A stretch of DNA of 64,000 nt. Origin: Geoglobus ahangari. Its GTDB lineage: Archaea; Halobacteriota; Archaeoglobi; Archaeoglobales; Archaeoglobaceae. The stretch is taken from assembly GCF_001006045.1 (NCBI RefSeq), contig NZ_CP011267.1, positions 1,240,001 to 1,304,000 on the forward strand, in the 5' to 3' direction. The stretch's first letter is position 1, and the number at the start of each line of letters is the position of its first letter. This document shows positions 28,096 to 33,154 of this stretch, piece by piece. The notes under the pieces are model-generated. The model did not search any database. It was given only the letters and a program-made list of their open reading frames with translations, and was not told the DNA's origin. Both the position numbers and the translations under genes were made by a program.

Positions 28096-29910
28096 ATGCC
28101 GATGCCGAAGTTCAGGCCAACACTTATGACCCTGCTTGCATTCATGTTCATTGCATCAATTCTGTCATCTGTCCTCATCCTCTCCCAGCTCCACATAAGC
28201 GTGGTGAATGACTTTTTTGAAGACAAAACGAAAAGCACCCTTGAATCGAGAGTTCTTGCCATAGAAGATATGCTGAACCGTGAAATAAACTCACAAAAGG
28301 CCTTCTTCATGGCTGTGAAGCAGCACCCGCAGATAATCGATCTCTTCAGGAAGTTTGGCGAGCTTAAGGAGAGGGATGGCATATCTCCTCCCTACCCGAT
28401 GGTCATAAGGGACTGGGATGCTTACAGGGCCGTCATCTCCTACTTCGCCGAGGTCTCGTCCTATGAACCCTCTCTCGAGATGCTGAGGACGTTCTGGAAG
28501 GACGGGAACGTGGTTGCCGGAGTTGTTTACGGCAGCGAGGACATAATGGACTACAAGGGTGACAAGGAGTGGTTCAGGCTCGTGATCTCTGGAAACGCGA
28601 GCGGCAGCGTTTACGTGTCGCCCATAAACATAGCGAGGCACACCAACACGCCCGCGATAAGGTATGTGTCTCCTGTGGTCGTTGACGGCAGGATCGTTGG
28701 TCTGGTTATCGCCAACTACAACTTCAAGAAGACGTTCTCGCTGATCAAGGACATCTACTGGGAGGAGGGGGAGCACATACTGATAATAGATCCCTCCTAC
28801 GAGAACGCTGAGGGAGAGGTGCTCGGCCCCAGGTTTATAGTGAACACGTACGACCCGAGAACCGAGTTCAACGAGAGCTGCCCAGTCTGCCCGCTGGTGG
28901 ACATCAAGGAGTTTCCGGGGCAGAACGGCTTCGTCAAGTTCAGATACGGCGGTGAGAAAACACTATACGGGTACTACAGGTGGACGACCCTCGAGAACGG
29001 GAGAGAGTACCTGATCATCTGCGCGGTAACTCCCGAAACTTTCGCAGCGGTGACCAACGACATAAAGAAGACGGCGGTCATCGGGGCCACAGCCATCGGG
29101 GCGGTTTTCGTGCTTGCATCGATTTTCATGTCGAGATTCCTCCTGAACCCGATCGAGGACATAATAATGAAGGCGAGGGTCATCGCAAGCGGAGCATACT
29201 ACTCGAAGGTCAGCGTGCACAGAGGGTACAGGGAGGCGGAGGTGCTTTCGAGGGCGATAAAGGAAATGCAGGAGAGCCTGCTGTCCTACCTGAGGAAAAT
29301 AGAGGAGTTCGGTGAGGGACTGAAGCTCGTTAACTCCGTCATCAGGCACGACACGATAAACCACCTGACCGCGGCGATGAACTACCTTGACTTCTACAGG
29401 GAGACGGGAGACGAGGATTATCTTGAAAAGCTCAGGGTGTCTCTGAGGAGGGTTTCGGAGACGCTCAGGGTGTCGAAGGTTCTCGAGGCAGTTATGGAGA
29501 CTGGGGAGAGGAAGAGAGTCAGGGTGGCAAACCTCGTCTCGAAGGTTGCCGAGAGGTACCCCGAGGTCAACGTGGTGGTGGAGGGTGACTGCGAGATTCT
29601 CGCCGATGACGGGATGGAGGTGGTCTTCGACAACCTGATTCAGAATGCGATCAAGCACGGAAAGGCAAAGAACCTCTTCGTGAAGATAGTGGATGACAGG
29701 GAGTGGTGCACCATCACCGTCTCAGACGACGGGGTCGGGATACCCGATGAGCTGAAGGGTCAGATTTTCGAAAAGGGCTTCAGCACCTCCGGCACGGGAC
29801 TCGGGCTGTTCATAACAAAGCTGATTCTCAGCAGGTATGATGGAGAGATAAGGGTTGAGGACAACGAGCCGAAGGGTGCGAGGTTCGTGATAAAAATAAG
29901 GAAGTTCTGA
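28096..29910 (+). CDS. Membrane sensor histidine kinase with extracytoplasmic Cache-type domain
   Basis: 604-residue kinase. A membrane helix at about 10-30 and another at about 312-335 enclose a 280-residue external sensor of double-Cache type (segments such as WFRLVISGNASGSVYVSP and VSPVVVDGRIVGLVIANYN). It is followed by a HAMP-like linker, the phosphoacceptor region with NSVIRHDTINHLTAAMNYL near 418-436, and an ATPase domain with DNLIQNAIKHG, VSDDGVGIPD and TGLGLFITK. No response regulator gene is near, so it is an orphan. Its stop directly abuts the convergent aquaporin gene stop. Ligand unknown; small carboxylates or amino acids are usual for Cache. Confidence 0.88.
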   Translation: MPMPKFRPTLMTLLAFMFIASILSSVLILSQLHISVVNDFFEDKTKSTLESRVLAIEDMLNREINSQKAFFMAVKQHPQIIDLFRKFGELKERDGISPPYPMVIRDWDAYRAVISYFAEVSSYEPSLEMLRTFWKDGNVVAGVVYGSEDIMDYKGDKEWFRLVISGNASGSVYVSPINIARHTNTPAIRYVSPVVVDGRIVGLVIANYNFKKTFSLIKDIYWEEGEHILIIDPSYENAEGEVLGPRFIVNTYDPRTEFNESCPVCPLVDIKEFPGQNGFVKFRYGGEKTLYGYYRWTTLENGREYLIICAVTPETFAAVTNDIKKTAVIGATAIGAVFVLASIFMSRFLLNPIEDIIMKARVIASGAYYSKVSVHRGYREAEVLSRAIKEMQESLLSYLRKIEEFGEGLKLVNSVIRHDTINHLTAAMNYLDFYRETGDEDYLEKLRVSLRRVSETLRVSKVLEAVMETGERKRVRVANLVSKVAERYPEVNVVVEGDCEILADDGMEVVFDNLIQNAIKHGKAKNLFVKIVDDREWCTITVSDDGVGIPDELKGQIFEKGFSTSGTGLGLFITKLILSRYDGEIRVEDNEPKGARFVIKIRKF

Positions 29911-30645
29911 TCACTCACTTGCAAGGTAGTCGTACAGGAAGGCCGCAGCCACCGCCCCGACAATCGGGCCTATGACGTATATCGGGAAGAACTGCCAGAG
30001 GTTTATGCCGTACATCGAGTCTATGACGTAGGGCCCGAACGTTCTCGCGGGGTTGAGCGAGGAGCCGGTTATGTTTCCGATGGTTATGATTATCCCGCCG
30101 ACAGTCAGACCTATCACAAGGCCGGCAAACCCCGGTGGGGCGCGCTCATCAACGGCGATGCCCATAATCACCAGCATCAGGACGAAGGTTCCTATTGCCT
30201 CTGCCAGAATCGCCTGCCCGTAGCTTATGCCCGGGAATGGTGCTGTCGCTCCCATGCCCCCAACGAGCGCCGCGTCACTGCCAACGCAGGCCAGGAATAG
30301 CCCGCTGCCAACAGTCGCGCCTATAAGCTGTGCGACTATGTATGGGCCGACATCTGACGTTGGAAACCTCTTCGTCGCCCACAGAGCTATGGTTACGGCA
30401 GGGTTTATGTGGGCACCGCTGACCCTCCCGAGAGAGTAGATGACCGCCGCTATAATCAAAGCGAACGCCATTCCGATGCCGAGCCAGTCCCCTATGCCCC
30501 CAAGGGCTCCTATGCCTATGTTGAACTCGTTTGGCCTCGCTGCGTTTCTTGCGATCATCAGGGTTATCACTGCCGAGCCTGCGCCGAAGAAGACGAGCAG
30601 TGCCGTGCCAACAAGCTCAGCAACAAACCTCTTCGCGAGCGTCAT
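29911..30645 (-). CDS. aqpM: Aquaporin/glycerol facilitator (AqpM-like MIP channel)
   Basis: 244-residue MIP family channel with six membrane segments and both pore motifs: HINPAVT near 80 and SLNPARTFG near 200. Archaeal AqpM channels pass water, glycerol and possibly H2S or CO2. N-terminus has FVAELVGTALLVFFGAGSA. It is the last gene of a minus-strand unit with DUF2180 and the DUF2193-like gene (2-bp and 30-bp gaps), an unusual setting for a channel. Selectivity cannot be assigned from the motifs alone. Confidence 0.92.
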   Translation of the reverse strand: MTLAKRFVAELVGTALLVFFGAGSAVITLMIARNAARPNEFNIGIGALGGIGDWLGIGMAFALIIAAVIYSLGRVSGAHINPAVTIALWATKRFPTSDVGPYIVAQLIGATVGSGLFLACVGSDAALVGGMGATAPFPGISYGQAILAEAIGTFVLMLVIMGIAVDERAPPGFAGLVIGLTVGGIIITIGNITGSSLNPARTFGPYVIDSMYGINLWQFFPIYVIGPIVGAVAAAFLYDYLASE

Positions 30646-30647
30646 CT

Positions 30648-30857
30648 TCAGCCCTCCTCGTATGCCTCATTGCATATGACGCAGAGAATCCTCGGAACCG
30701 GCTTCTTCAGCTTCCTCGCCGGAAACGGGTAGTCCCCCCTCCAGAGCTCCACGTCCTTCCTGACCAGATGCTCCATGCACACGCCCATCCCGCACACTAT
30801 GCAGATCGCGACCGCCTCGGTGTCCCTACCCTGCTCTGCGCAGATGTAGCACTTCAT
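30648..30857 (-). CDS. DUF2180 zinc-ribbon small protein
   Basis: 69-residue protein matching DUF2180: cysteine pairs CYIC at residues 3-6, CIVC and GVCMEH in the middle, CVIC near the end, giving a likely two-zinc fold. No enzyme motif. Lies 2 bp upstream of the aquaporin gene and 30 bp downstream of the DUF2193-like gene; the trio is transcribed together. Function unknown; could be an assembly or regulatory partner. Confidence 0.8.
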   Translation of the reverse strand: MKCYICAEQGRDTEAVAICIVCGMGVCMEHLVRKDVELWRGDYPFPARKLKKPVPRILCVICNEAYEEG

Positions 30858-30887
30858 GGTCTACCACCACGAAAAAAGAGAAGAGAA

Positions 30888-32387
30888 TTAGACAGCCTCT
30901 CTCCACTGGCAGTGCGCGTGCCTCGTGTCTATGAGCGCAGCAGTAGCACAGTCCTTGCACCTTCTCGCCGGAGAGTTGGGCGTGTCCTTGTGCAGGGCAA
31001 TGACGTTGGTCATCATTGTAGCAGTAACGGGCTCGCTCGTCAGCAGGCACGGGTAGTCTGCGAGCCTCATCAGCGCCGAGAACCTCACGCTTATAGCACA
31101 TCCCGGATACGCGTAGCGCTGCGGGTTCATGAGAACCTCGTTCTTGTGCACAGGGCTCAGGTCGACCTCAAACTCTCCAACCTTCACCTTCAGCTCCTCA
31201 GAGCTTCCGTTTCTCGCCCTTGTTGCTTTATCCAGCAGTTTCCATCCCCTGTATATCATGTCCATGAAGTCGTGGTTGTGCAGCTCGACAGCCGCATCTC
31301 TCGCAGGATAAAGCTGCACGTAGTTGTGGAAGCGCTTTGTGAGCAGATCCACTATCATCGGCGCCGTGAATCCGTCGAGCTCGAGTATGTACTCCGTCGC
31401 AACAGCTGTTGAGCCGGTCGCCACCCACAGCGGGTGGAACTCGTTCTCGAACTTGTCGAGGTTTGCCCTAAGCGTGCTCTCCATTACCTGACTCACGCTC
31501 TCTATGACCGCCATCACCACATCGTCCTTGCACATGTTGAACGTTGACTGGGCGATGTGATGGGCTATATCTCCAACGCAGTACGCCGGAACTGTGAGGA
31601 TGTTGCCGTAGTGCACACCGTCGTCAATTGCCTCCTTCACTGCAGGAGTCATCCTCTTCTTGTACTCGCTCATGTACTTCCTCACGTCAAAGCTCTCGTG
31701 TCCGAGGCTCTCCATGAGCTGGGCCTGAGCTTCGGTGGGCTGGTCGTATATGAACTTGAGCATCTCGATCTCCTTCTTAACAGCCTCGCTCACAGTCGCG
31801 CCCTTCTCAAGCTCCTTGGCGAAGACATCCCCAATCCCGTAGGACGTGTTCATGGCCCACGACTTGGCTGCGAGAATCGCCTCCTTATGCTCCTTCGGAA
31901 TGTCTACCGTCTTGAGAATCTGGTTCACAACATTGCTCGTGCTTCCCGGAATCAGGGCGAAGTCCACGACACAGGTGGGGCCGTAGAATCCCCCGTACCT
32001 CCTCACGACTTCCTTGCCAATTATGGCCTCGCCCTTCTCAATTGCCTCTATAAACTTCTCCACACTCTTCCTGAACCCCTCATCCTCCTCGTACAGGATC
32101 TCCATTACTGCCGGGGTCTGGTAGTGCTCCACAAACGGGTCGTCCTCAGGCCTAACAGTCTTCGTCAGGCTCCTGAGGATCTCGTAGTGGGCGTTGACGC
32201 TGTCCACGTGAAGCCTTATCACGGCCTTGCTCTGCTCGCCAACGGCTTTCATCTTGTTCACAACATCTACATAGGGCTTCACGTCGTCAATTACGAACTC
32301 TCCACCCCTCTTCTCCTTAATCACGTTCACATCGGCCCACTGGGCCGCGATGGCCTCTTCGACCATCTTCTCAATAACTTCTCTCAT
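30888..32387 (-). CDS. DUF2193-like conserved archaeal protein
   Basis: 499-residue cytoplasmic protein that I recognise, with moderate certainty, as the DUF2193 family of methanogens and Archaeoglobales; no function known. Seen: mostly helical N-terminal half, a Gly/Pro-rich YGGFYGPTCVVDFALIPGSTSNVVNQIL near 125-155, several Met/His-rich stretches, and a C-terminal CKDCATAALIDTRHAHCQW with three Cys and two His that could bind metal. A conserved-looking PGCAISVRFSALMRLADYPCLL precedes it. Starts at ATG 32387, divergent from an HTH_10 regulator across a 119-bp promoter region with three copies of GGTGGACA. Confidence 0.65.
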   Translation of the reverse strand: MREVIEKMVEEAIAAQWADVNVIKEKRGGEFVIDDVKPYVDVVNKMKAVGEQSKAVIRLHVDSVNAHYEILRSLTKTVRPEDDPFVEHYQTPAVMEILYEEDEGFRKSVEKFIEAIEKGEAIIGKEVVRRYGGFYGPTCVVDFALIPGSTSNVVNQILKTVDIPKEHKEAILAAKSWAMNTSYGIGDVFAKELEKGATVSEAVKKEIEMLKFIYDQPTEAQAQLMESLGHESFDVRKYMSEYKKRMTPAVKEAIDDGVHYGNILTVPAYCVGDIAHHIAQSTFNMCKDDVVMAVIESVSQVMESTLRANLDKFENEFHPLWVATGSTAVATEYILELDGFTAPMIVDLLTKRFHNYVQLYPARDAAVELHNHDFMDMIYRGWKLLDKATRARNGSSEELKVKVGEFEVDLSPVHKNEVLMNPQRYAYPGCAISVRFSALMRLADYPCLLTSEPVTATMMTNVIALHKDTPNSPARRCKDCATAALIDTRHAHCQWREAV

Positions 32388-32432
32388 ACAATCACCAAAC
32401 TATTATAATTTTTAATCGTAGATATAGCATTT

Positions 32433-32500
32433 GGTGGACAGGTTTATATTCGAAACGCGGAAATGTCCACCCTCATGAATAAATATGATGGGGTGGACAT
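32433..32500. promoter_or_regulatory. Divergent promoter with three GGTGGACA operator motifs
   Basis: GGTGGACA occurs at 32433-32440 and 32492-32499, and inverted (TGTCCACC) at 32464-32471. The last two extend to a perfect 10-bp inverted repeat, ATGTCCACCC (32463-32472) and GGGTGGACAT (32491-32500), separated by 18 bp. A TTTATATT TATA-like element (32443-32450) lies between the first two copies. The layout suggests a binding site for the adjacent HTH_10 protein. Confidence 0.7.
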
Positions 32501-32506
32501 ATACAC

Positions 32507-33154
32507 ATGTACATTGCAAAGATTCGCGTTAACCAGCACACCTGCTCCCTCGCCAAGGCAACGGAGAACGGGCAGGTTTCAATGGAACTGCTGGAATACA
32601 TCCTCATGAATGACGAGGAGGCGCTTTTCTTGGGGAGAATTTCGAGGATGGAGGGCAACCCGAGGGAGTGCTTCGACATAATCGAGAATCACGAGAGCAC
32701 GAAGTTCTTCCAGATTCTCGAGAAGACCAAAACGAGCCTCGACTTTCTCGCGGTGATCAGGGACACCACGGGAATCAAGGCGTTCGAGGAGTCTTACTGC
32801 TTCATAAAGCCGCCGATTATAGTGGAGAACGGAAACAAGCTCTACACTGTTTACGCCCCAGAAATAAGCCTGCTCAGAAGGGCCTATGAGAAGCTGAAGA
32901 GGGTGGGCAACTGGGAGGTAATCGAGGTGAAGAGCATAGACAGCAAGGGTGTCAGGCTTACAGAGAGGCAGTACGCGATCCTGAAAACGGCCTACGAGAT
33001 GGGCTACTTCGACAGGAGGAGGAAGGTGAAGCTTGAGGACATCGCGAGCGTCATGAACCTCTCGAAGAGTGCGGTGCACAAGCACCTTCAGGAGGGGATA
33101 TGCCGGCTTGTGGCAAAGTACTTCAGGAGCGAGGAGTTCGGAGAGGGAGAGTAA
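32507..33154 (+). CDS. HTH_10 (bacterio-opsin activator-like) transcription regulator
   Basis: 215-residue regulator. The last 60 residues are the HTH_10 domain: RLTERQYAILKTAYEMGYFDRRRKVKLEDIA, then MNLSKSAVHKHLQEGI, as in archaeal Bat-type activators. The N-terminal 150 residues form a mixed alpha/beta region without PAS or GAF signature, probably the sensor. Its gene starts 7 bp after the third GGTGGACA box, suggesting autoregulation and control of the divergent DUF2193-DUF2180-aquaporin unit. Confidence 0.84.
   Translation: MYIAKIRVNQHTCSLAKATENGQVSMELLEYILMNDEEALFLGRISRMEGNPRECFDIIENHESTKFFQILEKTKTSLDFLAVIRDTTGIKAFEESYCFIKPPIIVENGNKLYTVYAPEISLLRRAYEKLKRVGNWEVIEVKSIDSKGVRLTERQYAILKTAYEMGYFDRRRKVKLEDIASVMNLSKSAVHKHLQEGICRLVAKYFRSEEFGEGE

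Follow-up and report, generated by a model that had tools for sequence, protein, structure and literature searches.

A conserved archaeal gene unit joining an AqpM aquaporin to DUF2193 and DUF2180 proteins, with a divergent HTH_10 regulator and predicted operator dyads

What does an archaeal aquaporin admit to the cell when it is encoded with two proteins of uncharacterised family and faced by a regulator gene? The question is raised by a locus of Geoglobus ahangari, in which a DUF2193 gene of the A form (DUF2193-A), a DUF2180 gene and an AqpM-type aquaporin gene follow one another on the minus strand. The whole stretch of DNA analysed, hereafter the window, is 64 kb long (G000:C1:1240001-1304000) and belongs to a genome assembled as a single contig of 1,770,093 bases. 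Pfam searches confirmed both the family names and the coordinates that an earlier note on this DNA had given for the four genes (Table 1). The intergenic gaps are 30 nt (DUF2193/DUF2180) and 2 nt (DUF2180/aquaporin), and co-transcription of the three genes is therefore expected. On the aquaporin side the operon is bounded by a convergent histidine kinase gene, which ends at position 29910 and directly adjoins the end of the aquaporin gene. A literature search found no paper treating the operon, none on DUF2180 and none relevant for the A. fulgidus locus tags.

Table 1 Features of the operon, the divergent regulator gene and the region between them, in window positions.
Feature	Position	Strand	Basis or remark
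AqpM-type aquaporin, 244 aa	29911..30645	-	MIP PF00230 E=5.5e-50
DUF2180 mini-protein, 69 aa	30648..30857	-	Pfam PF09947 E=6.3e-38
DUF2193-A protein, 499 aa, first gene of the operon	30888..32387	-	Pfam PF09959 E=4.1e-276
TATA-like box of the operon, GCTATATCTA	32419..32428	-	sequence reading; similar position in relatives
Predicted operator dyad 3	32433..32448	.	-61 from DUF2193 ATG; weakest, 11/16
Predicted operator dyad 2	32456..32471	.	-84 from DUF2193 ATG; 13/16
TATA-like box of the regulator gene, AATAAATAT	32478..32486	+	sequence reading; ~21-29 nt before ATG
Predicted operator dyad 1	32492..32507	.	-120 from DUF2193 ATG; 13/16
HTH_10 regulator, 215 aa, divergent	32507..33154	+	PF04967 E=2e-17

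Flanking regions were surveyed with phmmer and loci were collapsed to distinct ones at 97% identity, which gave 102 distinct DUF2193-A loci, each with at least 1.2 kb of downstream sequence. In 99 of them the next downstream gene, on the same strand, encodes an aquaporin, bearing out the earlier claim that channel and DUF2193 are locked together; scatter of the genes in relatives had been named as grounds for refutation, and the survey found them together. The pairing spans Archaeoglobi and several methanogen orders, the loci closest to the query being those of Archaeoglobus, Archaeoglobi and Geoglobus, and an aquaporin is absent at three loci (L046, L068 and L075). DUF2180 was counted at 76 of the 102 loci, an underestimate because some frames extend upstream and fail the overlap rule; none was seen at L146-L163 (putatively Methanobrevibacter-like) or L122-L125 (putatively Methanosarcina-like). 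Beyond the operon, a survey of 51 loci revealed no further broadly recurring neighbour, and several of the recurrent clusters in that survey were antisense or overlapping frames. Judged from these comparisons, the gene unit would be ancient and common to methanogens and their relatives. The original observation of the unit is borne out, with more support than at first claimed.

The DUF2193 protein matched its Pfam family over the full length (positions 2-498 of 498) and matched no other Pfam family. Its description as a Cys/His-rich protein of 499 residues was overstated, given a content of 8 Cys and 16 His, but many of these residues are invariant. DUF2193-A carries the C-terminal motif CX2CX6DX2HX2C in addition to invariant His and Asp positions, and H67, E87, E126, D142, H276, H277, H370, D373, D376, C447, C477, C480 and C493 are common to the A form and a paralogous B form (DUF2193-B). 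A single-sequence structure prediction was discarded (pLDDT 36.5) and an alignment of 91 sequences was used instead, from which AlphaFold produced an almost wholly helical model with a pLDDT of 93.1 and a pTM of 0.91. Foldseek returned no PDB match to this model at E ≤ 0.001, viral structures likewise gave no fold match, and sequence searches of the PDB gave no credible match, with chance matches only from the profile search. There was neither a sequence match in the PDB nor a fold match at E ≤ 0.001 to an MtaB/MttB-type methyltransferase, and DUF2193 fell into no known carbonic anhydrase family in Pfam or fold in the PDB (E ≤ 0.001). The fold, which is confidently modelled, would be new among solved structures, cellular predicted structures lying outside the comparison. 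Its conserved residues probably cluster in space, and we infer that DUF2193 is an enzyme and binds metal.

A metal-binding DUF2193 could also serve iron-sulfur or metal assimilation, holding a labile Fe-S cluster or a metal for trafficking. For Mvol_0354, a DUF2193 protein (voltae), a higher abundance was recorded on FeS2, and a role as cluster ligand has been proposed for its C-terminal Cys motif (PMC9431491). This was, however, one proteomic comparison in which hundreds of proteins changed, the H/C swap seen at position 490 between DUF2193 subfamilies fits zinc too, and the pairing with an aquaporin would go unexplained. We consider such a role very improbable.

Our preference for one-carbon chemistry derives from the DUF2193-B paralogue, which has the same conserved residues and pairs with MtrH and Mer genes. 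In Archaeoglobaceae, a shortened MtrH-family gene (NF002142) overlaps or directly adjoins DUF2193-B, and by coordinate comparison the two are adjacent on one contig in 11 of the 12 genomes with the B form; in the twelfth (G239) they lie near the ends of different contigs. The copy in the G. ahangari genome (G000:C1:1044828-1046276) overlaps an MtrH-family gene, the single MtrH homologue there. At locus L119, mtr genes, mer (TIGR03555, 445 bits, over the cut-off) and an aldehyde:ferredoxin oxidoreductase (AOR) gene are followed by DUF2193-B, and at L121 DUF2193-B occurs with MtrH-family, MtaA/CmuA-family, AOR and Mer-family genes. The pairing with the NF002142 gene resembles MtrH/MtgA-type methyltransferase modules. 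Unlike these, the DUF2193-A operon is devoid of MtrH, and none of the known substrate-specific methyltransferase families was matched by DUF2193. The test for corrinoid proteins covered the B12-binding_2 domain only and gave no match in the G. ahangari genome, an absence compatible with other corrinoid proteins.

The distribution of DUF2193 follows that of Mer. A DUF2193 match was found in 85 of 295 sampled genomes, 84 of which have Mer over the cut-off; in the one remaining genome (G182) the match to Mer is weaker. Compared within the family, DUF2193 is present in 24 of 42 Mer-positive and in none of 9 Mer-negative genomes (Fisher p=0.002, a test that ignores shared ancestry). In one genome where Mer is not over the cut-off (G102), DUF2180, aquaporin and regulator survive as remnants only.

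The aquaporin scored above the cut-off of the MIP family, and the solved structures closest to it, 2evu and 3ne2, are both AqpM; we take the latter to be an Archaeoglobus protein. It is similar over its full length to 3ne2 and to the AqpM of M. marburgensis (PDB 2evu/2f2b), and its filter (Phe62, Ile187, Ser196, Arg202; F/I/S/R) is identical to that of the M. marburgensis channel. Positions 62, 187 and 202 are F, I and R in all 144 DUF2193-linked aquaporins, with mostly S or A at 196. The comparison set comprised 20 regions of related genomes with MIP genes unlinked to DUF2193: five had the classical F/H/T/R filter, six had T, S or C/I/A/R, five had F/I/A or G/R in genomes without a listed DUF2193 match, and in four the frames were unalignable and the filter unreadable. 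Since five unlinked regions also show F/I, this filter accompanies DUF2193 yet is not exclusive to it. A familiar parallel is the GlpF-GlpK operon of glycerol facilitator and kinase, in which, as possibly here, a channel is encoded with an enzyme that traps or converts its solute under a local regulator. The likeness ends there, for the window protein does not have the Trp/Gly/Phe/Arg filter of GlpF-type aquaglyceroporins and DUF2193 matches no kinase family.

The AqpM proteins of known structure (2evu/2f2b and 3ne2) have been studied as single channels. Regarding the solute, a paper on AqpM states that the M. marburgensis channel conducts water, with a glycerol permeability far below that of GlpF, and that CO2 had earlier been proposed; operon partners are not discussed in the passages considered (PMC3287591). 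In Methanocalculus at 25 MPa, the AqpM transcript rose about 4-fold, from 2.17 to 9.19, and calculated free CO2 dropped more than 40-fold (PMC12727201). Water conduction and induction under pressure would both suit AqpM as a plain water channel, modulated by the DUF proteins in the service of water, pressure or osmotic balance. Against this, DUF2193 keeps an enzyme-like set of polar residues, its presence tracks Mer, and its B paralogue was unlinked to an aquaporin at every locus read; we hold a balancing role to be decidedly improbable. The pressure response and the earlier proposal of CO2, along with the prevalence of the unit in methanogens and Mer-bearing Archaeoglobi, could also be taken to indicate CO2 supply, with AqpM conducting CO2 and DUF2193, as a metalloenzyme so far unrecognised, hydrating or otherwise handling CO2 in CO2 reducers. 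That role, which we regard as distinctly unlikely, leaves the pairing of DUF2193-B with MtrH unexplained; moreover, the pressure experiment is confounded and no DUF2193 gene appears in its table.

The regulator has an HTH_10 domain scoring 63.1 bits against a cut-off of 23.1. It has this C-terminal domain in common with archaeal HTH_10 (Bat-type) regulators but differs in its N-terminal domain, which matched no Pfam family over the cut-off and in which Cys13, His61 and Cys98 are invariant (alignment of 18 non-redundant relatives). The protein is present in 29 of the 295 genomes of the phylum, as a rule once per genome and beside DUF2193, in keeping with the suggestion that it is dedicated to the unit.

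The earlier note had also proposed a three-copy operator. The motif GGTGGACA/TGTCCACC does occur three times within 67 bp (32433-32440 +, 32464-32471 - and 32492-32499 +), but each GGTGGACA is only one half of a longer dyad with the consensus GGTGGACATGTCCACC, so that the region holds three dyads, all of them imperfect copies. The perfect 10-bp inverted repeat reported there is present at 32463-32472 / 32491-32500 and consists of halves of two neighbouring dyads. Across the whole 64-kb window the motif is found 8 times against 1.87 expected, a count reached in 0 of 100 shuffles, and Geoglobus loci, like many of the Archaeoglobus type, have sites in comparable places. When 200 bp of upstream sequence was scored for the core GGACATGTCC (threshold 8 of 10 or better), sites appeared in 37 of 38 loci with the regulator (mean 1.87, expected 0.04) as against 1 of 111 without it, the regulator-bearing loci being related to each other (18 regulators left at 90% identity). 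This ties the operator to the regulator, as had been claimed. Two Methanosarcinaceae-type genomes with a regulator homologue beside DUF2193 (L124 and L262) likewise have the perfect core; the homologue at L262 is frameshifted. The notion of a regulated unit is not a general one: regulator and sites are restricted to Archaeoglobi and these two genomes, and other methanogens keep the operon without either. On present sequence evidence, a real operator and its coupling to the regulator appear well supported.

On sequence reading, dyad 3 sits just ahead of the operon's TATA-like box, and dyad 1 extends to the first base of the regulator start codon. The short distance between the regulator's own TATA-like box and its ATG (Table 1) suggests a leaderless transcript. 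Such a placement of dyads would suit activation of the operon combined with autorepression of the regulator; repression of both is equally open. In the whole genome, the dyad was found at 27 places with up to 3 mismatches, compared with 10 for a reversed control, and the 27 include two of the three operon sites, 36 bp apart. Genes around sites outside the operon were read at L164 and L165 only, their names coming from sequence reading and not from family search. Both candidates for a wider regulon, a putative DUF2589-like gene with two sites ~376 bp apart (L164) and a putative potassium-channel-like gene with one site (L165), were rejected, their sites being isolated or inside coding regions. 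Weaker sites mark four further candidate regions (L166-L169), at G000:C1 1-5000, 1398500-1404500, 680500-687000 and 403000-405000.

DUF2180 matched its Pfam family over the full length (positions 1-68 of 68). Seven Cys and one His (C3, C6, C19, C22, C27, H30, C59 and C62) are near-invariant among 126 sequences, a pattern consistent with two zinc sites. In one sampled family (f5, putatively Methanosarcinaceae), a tandem pair of DUF2180 genes is divergent from mer, and by coordinate comparison 35 of 40 genomes have the two within ~5 kb of each other. Next to the pair come a CMD-family gene and genes for cytochrome c, flavoproteins and rubrerythrin; because this is one conserved block, the adjacency of mer and DUF2180 amounts to one piece of evidence. 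The block resembles MA4664/MA3734-3743 of M. acetivorans, which a published account lists as a putative oxidative-stress operon (PMC3729527), and the corresponding clusters in related genomes carry DUF2180 homologues. The oxidative-stress annotation reportedly goes back to Lessner and Ferry. Such neighbours, and the two invariant Cys of the regulator, would fit an oxidative or redox defence in which AqpM passes hydrogen peroxide, DUF2193 and DUF2180 help to protect oxygen-sensitive C1 enzymes and the regulator, with its Cys residues, senses redox state. The Methanosarcinaceae clusters, however, have neither DUF2193 nor aquaporin, and no peroxidase-type gene was conserved beside the operon in the 51-locus survey; we judge this defence unlikely.

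The reading that we prefer, tentatively and at somewhat less than an even chance, is a regulated channel-plus-metalloenzyme unit for a small neutral molecule, probably one-carbon related. A small neutral substrate, as the earlier note suggested, is plausible and would equilibrate across the membrane through AqpM. In the cytoplasm, DUF2193-A would act on the channelled molecule as an all-helical metalloenzyme, with one site formed by His and Asp residues and a Cys-rich metal site towards the C-terminus, and DUF2180 would assist it as a small zinc protein. The divergent HTH_10 protein would bind the three dyads, controlling the operon as well as the regulator gene itself. The reaction would most likely involve one-carbon (methyl or methylene) groups linked to tetrahydromethanopterin, methanol and formaldehyde being examples of fitting substrates. 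We infer the one-carbon substrate, which we place below an even chance, as we do the direction of regulation. Several observations count against it: it draws on genes next to the B paralogue, and no C1 gene is present in the A operon; the DUF2180 genes of Methanosarcinaceae sit in a cluster annotated for oxidative stress, which favours a redox role; and Mer marks CO2-reducing metabolism generally. A bolder proposal, in our estimate rather unlikely, is that DUF2193 founds a new family of all-helical metalloenzymes for one-carbon or methyl transfer, in which the B form would partner MtrH-type enzymes without the usual corrinoid protein and the A form would be fed by AqpM.

For AqpM, an archaeal aquaporin of solved structure, the near-constant pairing with DUF2193 offers a direct handle on the physiological solute. 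Found where the tetrahydromethanopterin pathway has its methyl branch, the pairing is a handle on the widespread DUF2193 family too, and the regulator with its three mapped predicted sites provides a route to the inducing signal. Were the proposed function true, an archaeal aquaporin would gain a metabolic role in methanogens and Archaeoglobi.

A membrane histidine kinase, which matches Cache weakly, is convergent with the operon's aquaporin gene, the two ends abutting directly, and the kinase is retained at some Geoglobus loci. The aquaporin is missing at three DUF2193-A loci from other genomes, of which L046 carries an isochorismatase-like gene (identified by eye) after DUF2193-A, and L068 and L075 each have, downstream, a gene weakly similar to PNPOx (33-34 bits). 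In genome G102 (loci L260 and L261), the regulator, DUF2180 and aquaporin are present as degraded leftovers, and Mer over the family-profile cut-off is also lacking.

Matches to the operator-like dyad pattern occur elsewhere in the Geoglobus ahangari genome. Region L164 holds two at a spacing of 376 bp: one falls inside an HTH gene, the other in the stretch separating that gene from a DUF2589-like gene. Four more lie within regions L166-L169.

The DUF2193-B paralogue is overlapped by an MtrH-family gene, the sole MtrH homologue of this genome. At L119, from another genome, mtr genes are followed by mer, aldehyde:ferredoxin oxidoreductase and DUF2193-B. In Methanosarcinaceae-type genomes (L170-L175), DUF2180 genes, tandem in most cases, adjoin mer and head a cluster that also includes genes of the CMD, cytochrome c, flavoprotein and rubrerythrin kinds.

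Coordinates of the features described
Feature	Location	Position in locus
Membrane histidine kinase	window 28096-29910	
DUF2193-B and the overlapping MtrH-family gene	G000:C1:1044828-1047081 (own contig)	L112:6817-9106
mtr to DUF2193-B gene run		L119:131-7494
Operator-like site		L164:5269-5284
Operator-like site		L164:5645-5660
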